In this document: one piece after another, positions 274 through 9,734 of the stretch
Layout: each line of letters starts with the position of its first letter
Position numbering within the stretch: the first letter of the stretch is position 1
Origin: Bacteroidota bacterium
GTDB lineage: Bacteria > Bacteroidota > Bacteroidia > Bacteroidales > FEN-979
Direction: 5' to 3'
Assembly (NCBI GenBank): GCA_026391805.1
Contig: JAPLDJ010000016.1
Location: forward strand, 186,001-250,000
DNA: 64,000 bases
Made by a program: the position numbers and the translations under genes
The notes under the pieces: generated by a model
The model's database searches: none
The model's input: the letters and a program-made list of their open reading frames with translations, nothing else
What the model was told of the DNA's origin: nothing

Positions 274-404
274 GCATAACGCCCCGCCGGCAGCCCCAGG
301 CCGGGTTTAGCAGAATTTAAGTTTGTTTATGTTTGCATGTTTATTAGATCCAATCAACTTTCTTAACCAACTGCCCCGGCTTGTCGGCTGCCGGCTTGTT
401 AGGC
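274..404 (-). repeat. attC-like imperfect palindrome (GCATAAC...GTTAGGC on +; reads GCCTAAC...GTTATGC on -)
   Basis: Ends GCATAAC (274-280) and GTTAGGC (398-404). Inner perfect 10-bp arms GCCGGCAGCC (286-295)/GGCTGCCGGC (386-395) and second arms GCCGGG (300-305)/CCCGGC (375-380). Total 131 bp. Confidence 0.5.
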
Positions 405-411
405 ACAGATT

Positions 412-1119
412 TTAATCATAAATTTCGTATTTTGGAATATGGATATTCGCTAAATTTAGAAGAAACATGCATGTTTTGTAAAAATTCTCTTCACTTCCAG
501 GAGTATACCTGATTGTTATATGGTATTGATTTTGGGTAACACCTTCAAGTATCCATGATGAAGAATCTTCTAAATCATTTACACCTTTTTGCAAATTCCA
601 AAACTTGCAAGCATTTAAGATTTGGATAAATTTTTCCCAATTTTTCAGCGGAACATGCACCGTGCCTTGATCATATACTCTTACGGGGTTATAGATTCCA
701 TTACCACTTGATTTTGACCAGAAAAGATTGATAGAATTCGAATCCTTTTCAATTCTGATAACAATAGATTCATGAATCGACCTTAGCCAAGTGAATCGAT
801 AGACATCTTTTTTGAATTTTACATTATAAAGTAAAGGTTCTTTCATTTGAAAGAGAAAATTGGAGAATTGTAATAACTCTGTACTATCTACGCTGTTTGG
901 TATAATAAACGGAATATTTGTTCCAGAGGTGTCTCCTACTAAATGGTGTAACACCACCTTTGGTAACAATGCTGGAGGGCAGTACGGCACGGTCTTTTCA
1001 AGGGGTACGTTTTTACCGTCCACTTTTATAGTGGAATCAACGTACAATCTTTGTCCTTGAGCGAACCCAAAGGAGTTTATGAAGATGCTAAAAACTAATT
1101 GTAAAAGAATTGTTCTCAT
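412..1119 (-). CDS. Hypothetical secreted protein (signal peptide)
   Basis: 235 aa ORF, N-terminus MRTILLQLVFSIFINSFGFAQGQ. Flanked by 19-bp inverted repeats (398-416 / 1118-1136). Confidence 0.7.
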   Translation of the reverse strand: MRTILLQLVFSIFINSFGFAQGQRLYVDSTIKVDGKNVPLEKTVPYCPPALLPKVVLHHLVGDTSGTNIPFIIPNSVDSTELLQFSNFLFQMKEPLLYNVKFKKDVYRFTWLRSIHESIVIRIEKDSNSINLFWSKSSGNGIYNPVRVYDQGTVHVPLKNWEKFIQILNACKFWNLQKGVNDLEDSSSWILEGVTQNQYHITIRYTPGSEENFYKTCMFLLNLANIHIPKYEIYD

Positions 1120-1181
1120 TAAAATTTGTGCCTAACGACTTTGTAAACTTATATGTTGAGTTTATTTTAACAATTACTTAA

Positions 1182-1213
1182 CCCCCTCCACAATCCTTAT
1201 CTCCTCCTCCGTC
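1182..1213 (-). pseudogene. Remnant of the 3' end of a Type IIG-like R-M gene (copy 1)
   Basis: CCCCCTCCACAATCCTTATCTCCTCCTCCGTC; minus strand reads T-E-E-E-I-R-I-V-E-G, matching the intact gene's C-terminus TEVEIRIVEGGG. Confidence 0.5.
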
Positions 1214-1219
1214 ATGTAC

Positions 1220-1240
1220 GGGCGGGTTCCGGACCCGCCC
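1220..1240. repeat. GC-rich palindrome GGGCGGGTTCCGGACCCGCCC
   Basis: Near-perfect inverted repeat; shares the core GGCGGGTYCCGGACCCGCC with the palindrome at 9778-9814. Confidence 0.6.
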
Positions 1241-1398
1241 CTTCCCCATTTGCTTTTTCCCGCCCGGTATTTATAGCAGAATTATAAATTCTGCTATGTT
1301 CAGAGCAGTCCCGGATTTCCGGGGCCACTCAGTGGGGTATTTCATGGTTATGAATAATTACTTTTGATAAGCACAAATACTTTTTTTCAGGAAAGCTT

Positions 1399-2589
1399 TC
1401 AATTGAAGATGTATCCTGCTTTGACGAGTTTCCAGGCATAAGATCCTGTCATGTCATGGATAATCACAGAATAACACCCGTCCGGTATATTCGTCATATC
1501 AACAATAGTATTCGGGGTGCCTGCCTCTGATTGAAAGACCTCTTGTCCGAGTACATTAATGATTCTGATCCTATAGTTTTTGTTATTTGCCTTCCATGAG
1601 CTGGGAACCTCAATTTTAACGAACTCTTTACAAGGATTTGGGTAAATTAAAGCGGTCAATTGACCATAGCTTCCATCAGTGATCCCGGTCATATCCAAAT
1701 TTTTGTAATAATAAAAGCTCCCGTATAGGGTTCCAGCCATAACATCCAGGTCGCCGTCCTTATCAAGGTCTCCGAATGCAGGCGAAGAGTAACCATCGGT
1801 ACTCGTTAATCCAAAAGGATTCTGCACAACAGTTGTAAAATTGGGTGAATGTGCTGTGCCGGTATTCTGAAAATAAAACAAACCACCATAGAGGCCCCCG
1901 GAAAGCACATCGAGGTCACCATCTTTATCCAGGTCACCAATGGTAGGAGCAGAATAGCCATCAATGCTGGTAAGCCCGAACGCCGGATTGACAGGAAGTT
2001 CAAAATAAGGGGAGTGAACAGTTCCAGTATTTTCAAAATAAAGTAATTGCCCATAAAGGTTACCGGAGACCATGTCAAGATCACCGTCTCCATCCAGGTC
2101 GCCAAAGGCAGGAGCGGAAAAACCATCGGTTCCTAAAAGACCGAATGGTGAACTAATAGGAAGTTCAAAATTTGGTGCGGTCGGCGTCCCGGTATTTTTA
2201 TAGTATTCAAAACCTCCATACATTTTACCGACCATCAGGTCCAGGTCACCGTCTCCATCCAGATCGACAAATACAGGGGAAGAATACCCCTCAGTGCCGA
2301 TCAATCCAAAAGGATTCTGAAGGCTTCCCGCAAAGGCCGGAGAATTTGCCGTTCCTGTGTTCTGATAGTAATACAGGCTCCCGTACAGGGTTCCTGCCAT
2401 CATGTCAAGGTCGCCATCTCCATCAAGGTCGCCAAATGCAGGGGCAGAATAACCTTCAGTACTTTCGATCCCGAAGGGATTCTGCACGTAAGGTTGAAAA
2501 TTCTGCGCATTGATATATTGCCGGGTAAATGCTGTCAGGACGAAGATCATTGCTATAATTATCTTCATTTTATTGTTTAGGTTTTTCAT
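1399..2589 (-). CDS. FG-GAP/VCBS repeat protein with T9SS type A C-terminal sorting domain
   Basis: 396 aa; signal peptide; repeated 'GYSAPAFGDLDGDGDLDMMAGTLYGSLYYYQNTGT' units; C-terminus 'LIYPNPCKEFVKIEVPSSW...VLGQEVFQSEAGTPNTIVDMTNIPDGCYSVIIHDMTGSYAWKLVKAGYIFN'. Confidence 0.9.
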   Translation of the reverse strand: MKNLNNKMKIIIAMIFVLTAFTRQYINAQNFQPYVQNPFGIESTEGYSAPAFGDLDGDGDLDMMAGTLYGSLYYYQNTGTANSPAFAGSLQNPFGLIGTEGYSSPVFVDLDGDGDLDLMVGKMYGGFEYYKNTGTPTAPNFELPISSPFGLLGTDGFSAPAFGDLDGDGDLDMVSGNLYGQLLYFENTGTVHSPYFELPVNPAFGLTSIDGYSAPTIGDLDKDGDLDVLSGGLYGGLFYFQNTGTAHSPNFTTVVQNPFGLTSTDGYSSPAFGDLDKDGDLDVMAGTLYGSFYYYKNLDMTGITDGSYGQLTALIYPNPCKEFVKIEVPSSWKANNKNYRIRIINVLGQEVFQSEAGTPNTIVDMTNIPDGCYSVIIHDMTGSYAWKLVKAGYIFN

Positions 2590-2761: not shown

Positions 2762-5700
2762 TTATCCTCCCCCCTCAACTATCCTGATCTCCACCTCTGT
2801 CAAACCATATAACTCATAAACTAACTTATCAATCTCCTTCTCCAATGCACTTGTGTCAGCAATGGGGGAGATTTTTTTTGCAAATAGAATTTGGTTCACT
2901 TTTTCTGTCAACGTTTGTTTGGCTTCGTTTGAAATTTCTGGAATTGGAATCTGTTCAAAATATTGTGGTTTAACTTCAATAAATCCCCCACTTCGTATAA
3001 CACATATACTTGTAAGAAAATACCAAATTAGCTTTGAATTCAAGATGCCAAGTAGAGCTTTATCAGTTGTAGGAATGAAAACAGAGGGAGCATTTAAATA
3101 CGTCCCGGTTTCATCAAATGCAAATTTGTTTGAGTTTTGAAGATTTGGAAAGATTATTTTGGGCTGCTTAAATAAATCATAATAAGCGCAATTCCTGAGT
3201 TCCCACCAATATTCACCTTTATCATATCTTTTTTTTGCCAATTCTTCAAAAGGTAAAAGATGGTTGAAAATCTCCTGATAATCCTGTGACATCTTTTCTT
3301 TGGCACCTTCTTCAGAAAGATTACCAAATCTCTGCTTTGTAGATTTACTTTCAAAAACGATCATCCATTTGAATGGCAAGGGAGTATTCCATTTTTTAAT
3401 ATCCTTTCCATCATAGACAGGTTTCAATTCTTCATTATTGGATAGTTTTTTACTTAAGATAAATGCTTCATTCAGTGCGGTTTTTACACCATAAAAGCAT
3501 TTACTATAAACTTCTCTTAAACTCTTATTTTTCTGAAGAATTGCCAATATCTTACTTCCCTTTTCATCCCTGAAATTCCAAACATCAATTCTCATTGAAT
3601 TTTGGCTTACCTGGCTAAAATTTGATTTTAAGAACAATTTATCTTTATCACGGTATTGTATTTCATCGACTTTAAAAAAGTTGAAAAAATTATTTGGCTT
3701 TAACCCTTTTGCAGCCAATATAATAATCGGATAAGTAGTTGCTTCCTCAAAAACAATTACCGATGTAAAATCAATGTATTGTTCAATCTGGAAACTACCC
3801 ATAACAAATTCACGAAGCGCTTGTCCTGCAGCTGTTTTATCATAAGTGTTATTAATGAAACAGAATTTACCATTGTTGGTTAATATCTTATGAGATAATT
3901 CATAGAAATATGAAAAAACATCCCCACCAGATGCAAATAATTTATAGCTTTCTTTTAGATATTCTTTAAAATCCCCTAATTCATCTGCTCTGATATATGG
4001 TGGATTCCCAATCACAACATCAAACCCTATAAAATCTCCTTCGTCGTTTAAGACTTCGGGAAATTCAAACCTCCACTCAAAAGCATTTTCGAAAATTTTG
4101 TTTTCTTTTATTTCCTCGATTTCCTTGTTGAGTTTTGCAATCTGATCTTCGATCTTTTTCTGCTCCTTTTTCCTTTTATTTTCATGTTCTTTGCCTCCAT
4201 AGCCTTCTTCCGGCTCGAACAAAAAATGACCGGTGAACCTTTGATAGAGATCGCTTAGTAATTTATCGCGTTTTTTAATCCTGGGATCATTCTGGCCAAC
4301 CTCGGTCTGGAAGTCGCTTTTTATTTTATCGATCAACTGTTCCAACCCGCGTTTCTCTTCCTTGTTGGTTGCATTGCGATACGACATCACCGCCAGCCGG
4401 TAACTTCCGATGCTCCATTTACTGTTCTTCAGCGCCTGCCGAATATCCGCATCCAGTGCATAGCGCGAAATCAGCGAATTGCCGCATTTGATGTTGATGT
4501 CGATGTTGGGGAGCGTTTGCAGTTCAGCTGGTGAACTGGTGAGTTGGTGAACTGGTGAGTTTTCTGACTCACCAATTCGCAAGTTCACCAGTTCGCCAGT
4601 TTTTGCATAGTAACTGTTCTTCAGCAGCTCTATCCACAGCCTCAGCCGGCAGATCTTTACGGAATTGGGATTGATGTCGACGCCGAAGAGACAATTTTCG
4701 ATGATCGTCTGTTTCTCGCGGAAGAGGGTTTCCTGCACGCGCTGGCTCTCTTCGCTGTTGGGATTGTATTCGAACAGGTCGCCGTCTTCATCGGTTACGA
4801 TCAGCTCGTCATTCACAACTTCCACATGGTACTCCTTCAGCCGCTTTCCTTCCTTGTCCGCCAATATCCTCAGTTCACTCTTTATGGAAATGATCTCGTT
4901 CAGTGCCGAAACCAGGAAATGGCCCGAACCTACCGCCGGATCGCAGATCTTCAAACTGTTGATGATCCGGTTGGCCTCCTCCCGGCTGAAATCCGTACCG
5001 ATAGCGTTGTAAACGTCCGTCAGATCATTGTACCGCTCCCCTTCTCCTTCATCATTAAACTTCTGCACCACCGCCCGGCGGATCGTTTCGCGGCACATGT
5101 ACATCGTGATGAACCCCGGCGTAAAGAAGGAGCCGTCCTTGTAGCCGTTGATCTTTTCGAAGATCAGCCCGAGCACCGAGGCATTGATGAGCGTCTTGTT
5201 CTCCTCCTGGATCTCCTCCGAACCTTCGCCTGCGAAATCATAGGCATCGAGGAACTTAAAGAGGTAATCGAGCGCCGGCAGCTCGCCGGTGCACTTCTTG
5301 CCGTTGTTATCTTTCAGGACCGTTGAAGAGATCACCGGCAACCGGCCATCCTTCAACTGGCTGATGAACAAACAGGAATGTTCCACAGGCGTGGGCTCAA
5401 AGAGCGAACTGTTCAGGTAAGGGACATTGGCAAAAAGTTTTTTCGCCTCTTCGCTGCGGTCGCCCGGCATGCGCGCAAGGACTCCGAAGAAAAGTGTATT
5501 CAGGTCGTCGAAGTTCTGCACCTTTTCGCTGCTGAGAAAGGCAAACGACAGATCGCCCTTGTGATACCTGATCATCTGGGCTTCGAGGAGCTTCAGGAAA
5601 AGTATACGGTTGATCCAGGTTATGGAGAGCTCGAGGGCCACATTGAACAACCGTTCCTGCACTGTTTCGCCGAACTGCGCGGGCTTGTCGAGCCGTGCGA

Positions 5701-6598
5701 TCTTGTCGAGGTTATCGAGCTGGATGATGGCGCTTTCGATGAGCGAGCCGGCATTGCGTTCGCCCTCCTTCCTGCGCCCGATCAGTTTCTTACTTCCTTC
5801 CTTGGTTTCTGTTAATCCGATGATGTGGAGCAGTTCGGAATAGAAGGCCTTGTCGAGGCTGTTGCTGTCGTTGGCAAAGGGAAGCTTCAGCAGGTGTTCG
5901 GGCGAGAGCAGCTTAAAAAGCGCAATCAGTTTTGAATCGTCCTTTTTATCCTCGTTCCGCAACGGCTTATCATACTCCCTGAAATCGAACCAGGAGAAAC
6001 TGATCTCGGTATCCATGCCGGCCATGAAAGGCTCCGCGATCTCTTTATAGAAAAAGTCGGTGGTTTTCCCTGCAAGCCGTCCCTCCTCGAAATCGGTGAA
6101 GTGCTGAACCTGTCTCTTATCCTGCGCAAAAATCTTATCAAAAAGAATGGCATCGAAAACATACCACTCATAGATATTTGTTGCAACGAGGTGTTTGATC
6201 TCAAGGTTATGATTGGTAATCCGTTCCCGCAGGTAATAGAGGATCAGTTCATGAAATGCCTTTGCATTGAGGTTATCCGGCCGGATCATTTCGGCTTTGT
6301 TCGAAGGCTTTTTCGCCTCGATCAGCACCCCGGCAAAACTCTTTGAATCGTTGCCGTTGTGAATCACAAGATCGGTGCGTTCTTTCGTATTGATATAGAA
6401 CTTCGGATGGTAGAATGTATTCTTGAGGAAGTCACCCAGGTCGTTCTTCACATGTTCTTCCGACTCCGATTCGTCAAGTCCGTCGAGCAGTCCGATCAGG
6501 TTCTTCTTGAACAGTTCAATTTCGCTCCGGGTAGGTTTTACCTTGAGGTAGGCTTTGTTCAGTGATTTACGAGGAGATAAGAGTACACTTCGCAGCAT
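2762..6598 (-). CDS. Type IIG-like restriction-modification enzyme (nuclease-like N-terminus plus N6-adenine methyltransferase)
   Basis: 1278 aa; 'DLVIHNGNDSKSFAGVLIEAKKP' (D...ExK-like), 'ICDPAVGSGHFLVSAL' (motif I), 'DVVIGNPPYIRADELG' (NPPY); C-terminus 'YELYGLTEVEIRIVEGGG'. Confidence 0.85.
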   Translation of the reverse strand: MLRSVLLSPRKSLNKAYLKVKPTRSEIELFKKNLIGLLDGLDESESEEHVKNDLGDFLKNTFYHPKFYINTKERTDLVIHNGNDSKSFAGVLIEAKKPSNKAEMIRPDNLNAKAFHELILYYLRERITNHNLEIKHLVATNIYEWYVFDAILFDKIFAQDKRQVQHFTDFEEGRLAGKTTDFFYKEIAEPFMAGMDTEISFSWFDFREYDKPLRNEDKKDDSKLIALFKLLSPEHLLKLPFANDSNSLDKAFYSELLHIIGLTETKEGSKKLIGRRKEGERNAGSLIESAIIQLDNLDKIARLDKPAQFGETVQERLFNVALELSITWINRILFLKLLEAQMIRYHKGDLSFAFLSSEKVQNFDDLNTLFFGVLARMPGDRSEEAKKLFANVPYLNSSLFEPTPVEHSCLFISQLKDGRLPVISSTVLKDNNGKKCTGELPALDYLFKFLDAYDFAGEGSEEIQEENKTLINASVLGLIFEKINGYKDGSFFTPGFITMYMCRETIRRAVVQKFNDEGEGERYNDLTDVYNAIGTDFSREEANRIINSLKICDPAVGSGHFLVSALNEIISIKSELRILADKEGKRLKEYHVEVVNDELIVTDEDGDLFEYNPNSEESQRVQETLFREKQTIIENCLFGVDINPNSVKICRLRLWIELLKNSYYAKTGELVNLRIGESENSPVHQLTSSPAELQTLPNIDINIKCGNSLISRYALDADIRQALKNSKWSIGSYRLAVMSYRNATNKEEKRGLEQLIDKIKSDFQTEVGQNDPRIKKRDKLLSDLYQRFTGHFLFEPEEGYGGKEHENKRKKEQKKIEDQIAKLNKEIEEIKENKIFENAFEWRFEFPEVLNDEGDFIGFDVVIGNPPYIRADELGDFKEYLKESYKLFASGGDVFSYFYELSHKILTNNGKFCFINNTYDKTAAGQALREFVMGSFQIEQYIDFTSVIVFEEATTYPIIILAAKGLKPNNFFNFFKVDEIQYRDKDKLFLKSNFSQVSQNSMRIDVWNFRDEKGSKILAILQKNKSLREVYSKCFYGVKTALNEAFILSKKLSNNEELKPVYDGKDIKKWNTPLPFKWMIVFESKSTKQRFGNLSEEGAKEKMSQDYQEIFNHLLPFEELAKKRYDKGEYWWELRNCAYYDLFKQPKIIFPNLQNSNKFAFDETGTYLNAPSVFIPTTDKALLGILNSKLIWYFLTSICVIRSGGFIEVKPQYFEQIPIPEISNEAKQTLTEKVNQILFAKKISPIADTSALEKEIDKLVYELYGLTEVEIRIVEGGG

Positions 6599-7490: not shown

Positions 7491-9734
7491 ATGAAAAAAG
7501 AAGCGAAAAGTAACCGTGAAATCTTTAAAGGCAGTAAAAAGGGAACCAGGATAACAACACCTTTGGGGGATAAAATCCAGTTGACCAGGAACCTGCTGAC
7601 TAAAATTCCCAACCGTGTGATTGGAATAGATGTTTATCCAACCGTCCTCAAAAAAGGGAAAGTTCCCCTGACCAGGGAAAATATCGAGGCGACTTTTAAG
7701 AAGTTCTTAGTGGAAAATAAGACGCTCTTTAAAGTTGTGTCTAAAGATCTGAAAATGATTTCAGCGAAAAATATCAACAAGCGGTGGTATGTCAAATACG
7801 GGCAGTATTACAAAGGCCTTCCCGTATACGATGCCGTCGTAAACGTGGAATCATCCGAAGACGGCAAGGTAAGCTCATTCGCCACAAACTACCAGCCTGA
7901 TATCAAAGTAAGCATTGTTCCGAAGGTGAAACTGGAAAAAGCTATTGATAAAGCAACAGCAACATATCCGAAAAAGGATTCAAAGAAACTGAACCAAAAA
8001 GAGAGCATCCTGATCATCTACCCGGAAAAAATAAAAGACAAAATCGTCCATCATCTTGCCTGGAAATTATTGCTGGCCGGGGAAAAAACCAACCCGGAGA
8101 CAGAGAAGTATTTTATCATCGATGCTCATGACGGAAAAATAATCCGGTCATACACCGCTAATTTCCCGGGTGCAGATGTTACGGGCACGGTCCTCGGCGA
8201 GATCTATCCAGCAGTTCCGACCGACCCGGTAACCACGATGCCCATCAGGCACAGTTCGGTAGAAATTGAGGATGCAGGTACGGCAACCACGAACCACTCC
8301 GGCGCTTACTCCCAACATGTTCCCTGGTTTTGGGGGTTGATTTCACCCAGGCACGCCATATTCAAACTCGAGGGCCCCTATGCGCATGTCGAGAACAGCA
8401 ACGGCGCAGATTACACCGAGACCAGGGTGTGTGATACGGACAACCCGTGCGACCTGACCTGGACCGCCACCGACAGGGACCATATCAACCTCTTCTACCA
8501 CATGAACCTTTACCACGACTGGCTGGAAAGCGAACTTGGATACTCGTGGGTCAACCTGGACGGGACAAGCCGGTTCAACGCCCAGGTCAACTTCGGCTTC
8601 TCCAATGCCTATGCAGGCAATCCCATGACCTTCGGCACCAATAACTTTGCGAGAAGCAGTGACGTGATCTGCCACGAATGCACACACAACATTTTGTGCT
8701 ACGAATACGGCGATTATATCGGCTGGCCCAACAATTACACGGAAGCCTATGCTATGGACGAAGGCTTTGCGGACTATTTTTCCTGTAGCTATACCAATGA
8801 TTCAAGGCATGGCGAAGGCTATTCAGCAAACCCCAGGAATCTGGACAATAACACCCAATACTCCGGGAAAAGCAGTTTTAACCTCGAAGGCCACACCGGG
8901 GGAACGATCATTGCCGGAGCAGCCTGGGTGCTGCGTCAGCGGTTTGTCAGCCTCTATGGCGCATCAGGTGCGAGAATAGCGGATCAACTCCTTCTGGAAG
9001 CGCACCAGATACTCTCGACATATCCCAGGAATTATTACTTCTCCGATCCCCGTGAAAGCAACCTGCTTTCTGCACTTTACCGGGCTGCTGACATTGACAA
9101 CAATCTGCTGAACGGATTCCCTTACTTTAATGATATCCAGCAAGCATTCCACGCCCACAACCTCCTCCAGGCGGTCCTCGAAAGCGGAGACAGCTTCGAC
9201 TTCTCTAGCAACATCCTGGGCAGCTTTACCGGGGGCGATCTTTACTACTACCAGGGTAAATTCTGGGCAAACAATTACCACCAAAAAGGAGTAAAAGACC
9301 TGGGGGATATCGGAAACGCTGACCTGGCAACCGTCAGCATCCCCACCTCGGGCTTCACACGCTTTGGAGTAGCCGCAGCCCTGAACCATACCTATGTATC
9401 GATTGCGCAAGACGGGGAAACAGCAAGCTATATCGCATTTCGGGTTACGGCCATCAGCGCCGACAAATCAACAGTAACCATACGGCACCTCTACCGGTTC
9501 AATCCCAGCTGGCATGTCGCCAATCTCAATTCTAAAGAGATCCATAAACTGGACTGTCACTGGGCTTCCCTGATGCATGATCACAATAAATTATTCTGCA
9601 AGGATCTGAGTGAAGTAGCCAAGCTCATCAGAGAGAATGGATACAACGGGTGTCATTACTGCCTCCCCAGGTATGATACAGATACGCGAAGCATCACTAA
9701 AGTCCTGAAAAACCTGGAAGAAGATTTAGCGTGA
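7491..9734 (+). CDS. Thermolysin-like (M4) metallopeptidase with C-terminal Cys/His-rich domain
   Basis: 747 aa; 'DVICHECTHNILCYEYGDYIGWPNNYTEAYAMDEGFADYFSC' contains HExxH (HECTH) and a downstream E; N-terminal FTP/PepSY-like propeptide region; tail 'KEIHKLDCHWASLMHDHNKLFCKDLSEVAKLIRENGYNGCHYCLP'. Confidence 0.85.
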   Translation: MKKEAKSNREIFKGSKKGTRITTPLGDKIQLTRNLLTKIPNRVIGIDVYPTVLKKGKVPLTRENIEATFKKFLVENKTLFKVVSKDLKMISAKNINKRWYVKYGQYYKGLPVYDAVVNVESSEDGKVSSFATNYQPDIKVSIVPKVKLEKAIDKATATYPKKDSKKLNQKESILIIYPEKIKDKIVHHLAWKLLLAGEKTNPETEKYFIIDAHDGKIIRSYTANFPGADVTGTVLGEIYPAVPTDPVTTMPIRHSSVEIEDAGTATTNHSGAYSQHVPWFWGLISPRHAIFKLEGPYAHVENSNGADYTETRVCDTDNPCDLTWTATDRDHINLFYHMNLYHDWLESELGYSWVNLDGTSRFNAQVNFGFSNAYAGNPMTFGTNNFARSSDVICHECTHNILCYEYGDYIGWPNNYTEAYAMDEGFADYFSCSYTNDSRHGEGYSANPRNLDNNTQYSGKSSFNLEGHTGGTIIAGAAWVLRQRFVSLYGASGARIADQLLLEAHQILSTYPRNYYFSDPRESNLLSALYRAADIDNNLLNGFPYFNDIQQAFHAHNLLQAVLESGDSFDFSSNILGSFTGGDLYYYQGKFWANNYHQKGVKDLGDIGNADLATVSIPTSGFTRFGVAAALNHTYVSIAQDGETASYIAFRVTAISADKSTVTIRHLYRFNPSWHVANLNSKEIHKLDCHWASLMHDHNKLFCKDLSEVAKLIRENGYNGCHYCLPRYDTDTRSITKVLKNLEEDLA

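Follow-up and report, generated by a model that had tools for sequence, protein, structure and literature searches.

The DNA analyzed here, a 64-kb stretch (the window) of contig JAPLDJ010000016.1 from a Bacteroidota bacterium of the FEN-979 lineage, carries at positions 280-1135 a single gene enclosed by integron-like borders. This segment is nearly certainly a real integron-type cassette, although not of the textbook kind, and the best explanation of the whole, capture by the recombinase included, is very likely that it is a mobile cassette of a Bacteroidota-type integron, whose integrase resembles IntI without its additional domain. The cassette and attC reading, proposed in an earlier note made from the letters of the sequence, is borne out by homologous sites with compensatory changes, by same-strand arrays and by G^TT breakpoints elsewhere. 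The Bacteroidota-type integron is widespread and, it appears, undescribed. Moreover, it is reasonably likely that it represents a phylum-wide class, in which a domain-less IntI-like recombinase captures hairpin cassettes, escapes domain-based tools and provides a platform that mobilizes tet(X), lnu(H) and lnu(I).

Cassette borders and the attC family

The earlier note had described an 18/19 inverted match bracketing the gene and a 131-bp palindrome ending in GTTATGC with 10-bp and 6-bp stems, and both descriptions hold at the coordinates of Table 1. Specifically, the start box and the R'' box are inverted copies whose sole mismatch is position 11, and the 235-aa open reading frame (412-1119, minus strand) has its start within GTTAGGCACAAATTTTAATG and its end in ATTAAAATCTGTGCCTAAC. 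The attC site folds into two stems, a perfect one of 10 bp (395-386/295-286) and an inner one of 6 bp (380-375/305-300), with an energy of -28.5 kcal/mol (z = -4.1), which none of 200 shuffles equals. The strict cassette signature, defined as a GTT + N7 whose inverse match stands ahead of a hairpin, occurs at one place in the window when both strands are scanned, namely this cassette, and 0 times in 1.3 Mb of Markov-shuffled DNA. In integrons, the box on the right of an attC is part of the following cassette, and the start of each cassette pairs with its own R''. The boxes GCCTAAC/GTTAGGC fit the RYYYAAC/GTTRRRY consensus, whereas the right junction GTTATGC does not; the note was right about this departure, but it carries no weight against a cassette, because in an integrated cassette that box is the neighbor's, and the own box GTTAGGC complements GCCTAAC.

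The Rfam search gives no match in the attC region, and plain blastn of the site against its own genome returns the self-match only; since the other attC sites are missed by blastn, a covariance model is needed, and it was built from two sites, the window copy and C13:182945-183072. The latter lies 3.3 kb from the window cassette and closes another gene. The two copies differ by changes on both sides at five of the 22 stem pairs (11/116, 13/114, 15/112, 23/105, 24/104), and 21 of the 22 modelled pairs form in both. A third attC-like site of the genome (C1:199189-199314; locus L024 5189-5314) is decayed, with an R'' that reads ATGAC and no recognizable cassette start. Model matches are found in 23 of 61 relatives, many of them in same-strand series spaced by about 0.5-3 kb, with a site length of ~125-130 bp; arrays of same-orientation cassettes occur in genomes G004, G005, G033 and others, and the window itself holds one cassette. 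Across 81 sites, in an alignment that was fitted to the covariance model, compensatory changes affect 21 of 22 pairs and covariation reaches 0.248, against 0.083 when shuffled and at most 0.042 when slid; without model fitting, the L arms are paired at 8.5 of 10 positions, whereas shuffling them among sites gives 7.25 (maximum 7.65). The sites are thus imperfect palindromes with paired R and L boxes, as expected of attC. Short versions of 60 bp with the same start/R'' signature stand among the ~128-bp sites in the g2 genomes (L027 2592-2651; L076 11254-11313, 9743-9802 and 2-61).

The first 15 nt of each cassette (GTTR...) are complementary to the 15 nt that end in YAAC at its own attC. In 47 neighboring sites, the start of a cassette agrees with its own R'' at 9.1 of 15 positions (5-19), compared with 4.9 of 15 for other pairings, and the profile agrees at positions 1-10, almost never at 11, and again at 12-15. 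Specifically, position 11 is matched in 2 of 30 genuine pairs and positions 12-15 in 27, 25, 24 and 21, while in 13 Vibrio cholerae repeat (VCR) cassettes the corresponding counts are 7 for position 11 and 3, 3, 2 and 0 for the following four. Pairing to about position 10-11 is also present in the Vibrio cassettes, so that a ten-bp match alone is not special; the family is distinguished solely by the loop at 11 and by pairing that resumes at 12-15. This nearly invariant internal loop, where the start has A and the other copy has G or an inserted T, explains the single mismatch reported in the 18/19 match. The R boxes of the family conserve only YAAC/GTTR and do not follow the RYYYAAC/GTTRRRY consensus.

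The same evidence bears on two readings without an integron, both of almost negligible probability. The first, a non-mobile intergenic palindrome (a repetitive extragenic palindromic (REP)-like repeat or a transcription terminator) whose complementarity at the start codon is accidental, draws on the REP-like palindromes and the RAYT-like transposase gene in the neighborhood; against it, the start/R'' match is far above chance and cassette-specific, the sites stand in arrays with unrelated genes, and the context of tet(X3) switches exactly at G^TT. The second is a transposon or insertion sequence whose terminal inverted repeats contain the gene, as a single gene between 19-bp inverted borders would suggest; however, the 235-aa protein has no Pfam or NCBIfam match and hence none to transposases, the 131-bp structured site is on the right only, and homologous sites border unrelated genes.

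Table 1. Features of the cassette and its borders in the window
Feature	Position	Strand	Remarks
Gene cassette	280..1135	minus	856 bp, TTAGGC... through G of the final G^TT; boundary rule from arrays and the tet(X3) two-context comparison
Cargo, 235-aa hypothetical protein	412..1119	minus	hydrophobic N-terminus, signal-like by eye
Cassette start box GTTAGGCACAAATTTTAAT	1118..1136 (read 1136-1118)	minus	R' side; pairs with the cassette's own R''; enters ATG at 1119
Extended R'' box ATTAAAATCTGTGCCTAAC	398..416 (read 416-398)	minus	overlaps the gene's stop; mismatch to the start box at position 11
attC site GCCTAAC ... GTTATGC	274..404 (read 404-274)	minus	131 bp; covariance model R1, folding, 81-site covariation
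L'' arm (GCCGGCAGCC)	386..395	minus	pairs with 286-295; three compensatory changes relative to the C13:182945 copy
L' arm (GGCTGCCGGC)	286..295	minus	partner of 386-395
Inner stem, 5' arm	375..380	minus	pairs with 300-305; two compensatory changes
Inner stem, 3' arm	300..305	minus	folding and two-copy comparison
GTTATGC right junction	274..280	minus	G is the cassette's last base; TTATGC opens the neighboring segment (established integron topology)
attI-like site	1134..1176	minus	43 nt ending CG^TT; homologous to the attI beside the integrase of sister genomes; 4-way alignment

Integrase, arrays and the attI-like border

In agreement with the earlier note, which saw no integrase in the window, the integron-integrase profile matches of the genome all lie outside it, one of them on contig C12. 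This C12 integrase is encoded at the contig edge by an open reading frame of about 366-383 aa (366-1517, minus strand), has intact catalytic motifs and aligns to TIGR02249 in two blocks, 5-179 and 241-315, below the 265-bit cut-off. Homologues of this enzyme head cassette arrays. Specifically, in G004 a homologue of 369 aa is directly followed by at least 10 same-strand attC sites, whose cargo includes a RelE-like toxin/helix-turn-helix (HTH) pair, and in G005 the integrase heads an array in the same layout. The scan of the genome collection yields 80 integrase loci, mostly from Bacteroidota and including isolates of Algoriphagus, Arundinibacter, Arenibacter, Belliella and Seonamhaeicola; some labels of metagenome-assembled genomes outside the phylum may be binning errors. 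On the integrase strand, 33 strict signatures are located downstream of the gene (259 kb), all with position 11 mismatched, and 0 upstream (630 kb); the control on the opposite strand (4 matches) is not clean, as inverted borders are symmetric. Contigs end within 2.5 kb downstream of the integrase in 51 of the 80 loci and upstream in 9, an excess that is expected because repetitive arrays break assemblies. The integrase thus lies on the same strand as its array and upstream of it.

By inspection, many integrase loci have a short palindrome after the stop codon followed by ...CG^TTR, and an attI accordingly stands beside the integrase. A scan of 136 kb of the host genome's DNA with the 43-nt attI of the sister genome fen_979 ranks the C12 attI first (36/43) and the left border of the window cassette second (31/43), with its end precisely at GTT; no other match exceeds 25/43, and the cassette thus sits in an attI-like site. 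A 19-base pattern derived from the C12 attI and the window border has no other exact occurrence in the genome, which is a descriptive result only. As to the note's proposal of a CALIN-type remnant (two or more neighboring attC sites lacking an adjacent integrase), C13 carries two sites separated by 3.3 kb and no integrase match in their vicinity, but the intact matching IntI-like integrase on C12 and the attI-like left border indicate that the locus is not simply the remnant of a textbook integron.

From the arrangement of these genes and sites, it is quite likely that the domain-less IntI-like integrase is the recombinase that moves the cassettes. The C12 integrase would take the attC of an excised circle, folded as a single strand, and recombine it into attI or an attI-like site at G^TT, presumably using the folded bottom strand of attC, and an insertion of this kind could have placed the secreted-protein gene in the window.

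The missing IntI domain and competing explanations

The Bacteroidota-type integrase is without the ~41-residue additional domain specific to IntI: from the box-I Arg to H-x-x-R-H, 30 family members count 91-96 residues, compared with 133 in 22 bona fide IntI and 92-105 in Xer-like enzymes of the same genomes. In the phylogenetic tree, the family stands apart from IntI (100/99) and from XerC/D-like enzymes, with only 84/40 on its own branch and with long branches present, and the AlphaFold model (pLDDT 83) has IntI4 (2a3v) as its best PDB match, followed by XerA. An N-terminal extension precedes the core-binding domain (L012 369-1466, minus strand, and homologues) and carries one to several copies of 'IPGARW-P--KCWHI'-like motifs, in proteins of 366 to about 560 aa. 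The IntI-specific domain is what IntegronFinder requires (PMC9668308), and the family of the C12 integrase falls outside canonical integrons defined by a recombinase with this domain.

Several observations speak against cassette capture by this enzyme. The additional domain has been reported to be required in IntI (Messier & Roy 2001, cited in PMC2426708), and its necessity for activity is likewise stated in PMC4792948, where its origin is called a chicken-and-egg paradox. In addition, the integrase is encoded on another contig than the window cassette, the second local cassette begins at GTT without an obvious attI or attC, and the host genome has only three sites, one of them decayed. As to the mobility of the cargo gene itself, the note had proposed to look for relatives in which the gene is bounded elsewhere at G^TT; 4 other Bacteroidia genomes encode distant homologues (33-38% over the C-terminal ~150 aa), and the short flanks of these genes lack the cassette signature.

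The absent domain, held necessary for attC hairpins, also feeds an unlikely alternative, in which the integrase recombines only double-stranded attI and another enzyme, e.g., the host XerC/XerD, moves the cassettes. The attI-like sites are indeed palindromic, as for Xer-type enzymes; however, the arrays lie specifically downstream of the integrase gene in many genomes, and the cassette border within the genus is itself attI-like. A remnant of a canonical integron, inserted by a standard IntI that is now lost or acts from another species, would account for the integron-like attC architecture and is very improbable. Bona fide IntI is common elsewhere in the phylum (over the cut-off in 107 of 393 genomes), yet only G202 among the 107 is listed as the same class, and only one of the 21 site-bearing genomes searched, G006, exceeds the IntI cut-off, with GLN for GLR and no classical attC near; moreover, arrays and attI adjoin the domain-less integrase, and the position-11 loop is not a Vibrio feature. 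The G006 enzyme (C64:6297-7229; L162 6273-7232) does have the additional domain and may be decayed or repurposed, as GLN replaces the catalytic GLR; it sits in an electron-transfer (Hdr-like) gene cluster and was dropped as a classical control because no attC is nearby and the catalytic Arg is absent.

Resistance cassettes, known systems and the neighborhood

On plasmids of Acinetobacter, tet(X3)/tet(X5) has a neighboring 'xerD/tpnF' gene that belongs to the integrase family and is truncated at the 5' end, with 74.6% identity over the C-terminal part. In Acinetobacter p34AB (L185 5640-7200), tet(X3) comes after an attI-like palindrome and G^TTATGTGCCATTTTT and is followed by half an attC, while in Empedobacter brevis pSE1-3-9kb (L220 650-2050) the tet(X3) cassette stands behind another attC and its own attC is whole. 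The homology between the two contexts (97.5% over 1283 bp) starts at the G of G^TT, and this left breakpoint, together with the matching of own start and own R'' in arrays, places the cassette bounds at G^TT. The start and R'' of tet(X3) have drifted as a pair, with agreement limited to positions 1-4, 9-10 and from 12 on. Signature-bearing cassettes on Empedobacter and Riemerella plasmids contain lnu(H), lnu(I), a RelE/HTH toxin-antitoxin pair and a phosphotransferase (L216 1970-3153; L218 3193-5165; L222 2159-3116); in the same plasmid set, arr is also followed by an attC. Plasmids yielded almost no matches to the N-terminal region of a flavobacterial integrase. According to the accessible part of a 2026 paper (PMC13148043), aph(3')-IVb of Riemerella anatipestifer moves together with a 27-bp 5' untranslated region (UTR) and a 140-bp attC-like 3' UTR in the absence of flanking homology, and lnu(H) is said to behave alike; this independent laboratory result fits the cassette mobility seen on plasmids. 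The same part of the paper names no integrase, attI, arrays or cassette rule and reports no integron detected by its tool.

The Acinetobacter xerD-tet(X) unit (ISCR2-xerD-tet(X)-res-ISCR2) can be read accordingly, with a 'xerD' that is the truncated family integrase ahead of attI and the tet(X3) cassette; in this unit the integrase has lost its 5' end, the attC is incomplete, and the spread of the unit has been attributed to ISCR2 (PMC7530245). The authors who described tet(X14) beside xerD found no integron and asked whether XerD mobilizes tet(X) (PMC7473080), and the Bacteroidota-type integron offers a concrete mechanism for this unexplained adjacency, the validation of which they requested.

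With the IntI/attC integrons (the V. cholerae superintegron, class 1), the Bacteroidota type shares hairpin attC sites with R and L stems closing genes, same-strand arrays, exchange at G^TT, attI beside the integrase, IntI4 as the best fold match, and toxin-antitoxin and resistance cargo. Unlike them, it lacks the ~41-aa domain, has the N-terminal extension, places the integrase upstream of the array on the same strand, and has R boxes of ~15 bp that keep only YAAC/GTTR and break at position 11 (matched in 2/30, against 7/13 in Vibrio). A reversed integrase orientation relative to the usual one, as here, is general for typical Spirochaetota IntI (PMC9668308), but the enzymes of these 'reverse' integrons are IntI by the domain-based definition, whereas the Bacteroidota-type family is not. 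The available part of Smyshlyaev et al. 2021 (PMC8138268) describes the insertion as incompletely conserved within the integron-like subgroup, yet essential for integron function; the Bacteroidota-type family may be among the domain-less members of that subgroup, to which no cassette arrays are assigned in that part, whereas here arrays adjoin domain-less enzymes.

Xer/pdif modules are flanked by 28-bp dif-like sites and recombined by the host XerC/XerD; compared by eye only, the asymmetric borders of the window cassette (a short start box and a ~130-bp hairpin) are unlike pdif pairs. Bacteroidetes have been considered nearly devoid of complete integrons, with only In0 earlier and then one in Salinibacter ruber (PMC9024848). 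No description of a domain-less Bacteroidota integron system was found in the open-access literature, and, as preprints and subscription papers were outside this search, the novelty is provisional. A domain-less integrase that heads attC arrays makes the question of the necessity and origin of the IntI domain directly testable, and it informs annotators of what domain-based tools miss in Bacteroidota.

Lastly, repeated palindromes ('GGCCCCGGAAATCCGGGACC ... GCAGAATTTNTAATTCTGC') occur in the window at 1260-1345 and in locus L011 at 6370-6470 and 8500-8580, with a RAYT-like (REP-associated) transposase gene nearby (L011 5698-6300). Further along the window, positions 2762-6598 (minus strand) encode a 1278-aa protein that has a VIGNPPY motif and resembles a type II restriction-modification enzyme (N6-adenine methylase fusion).
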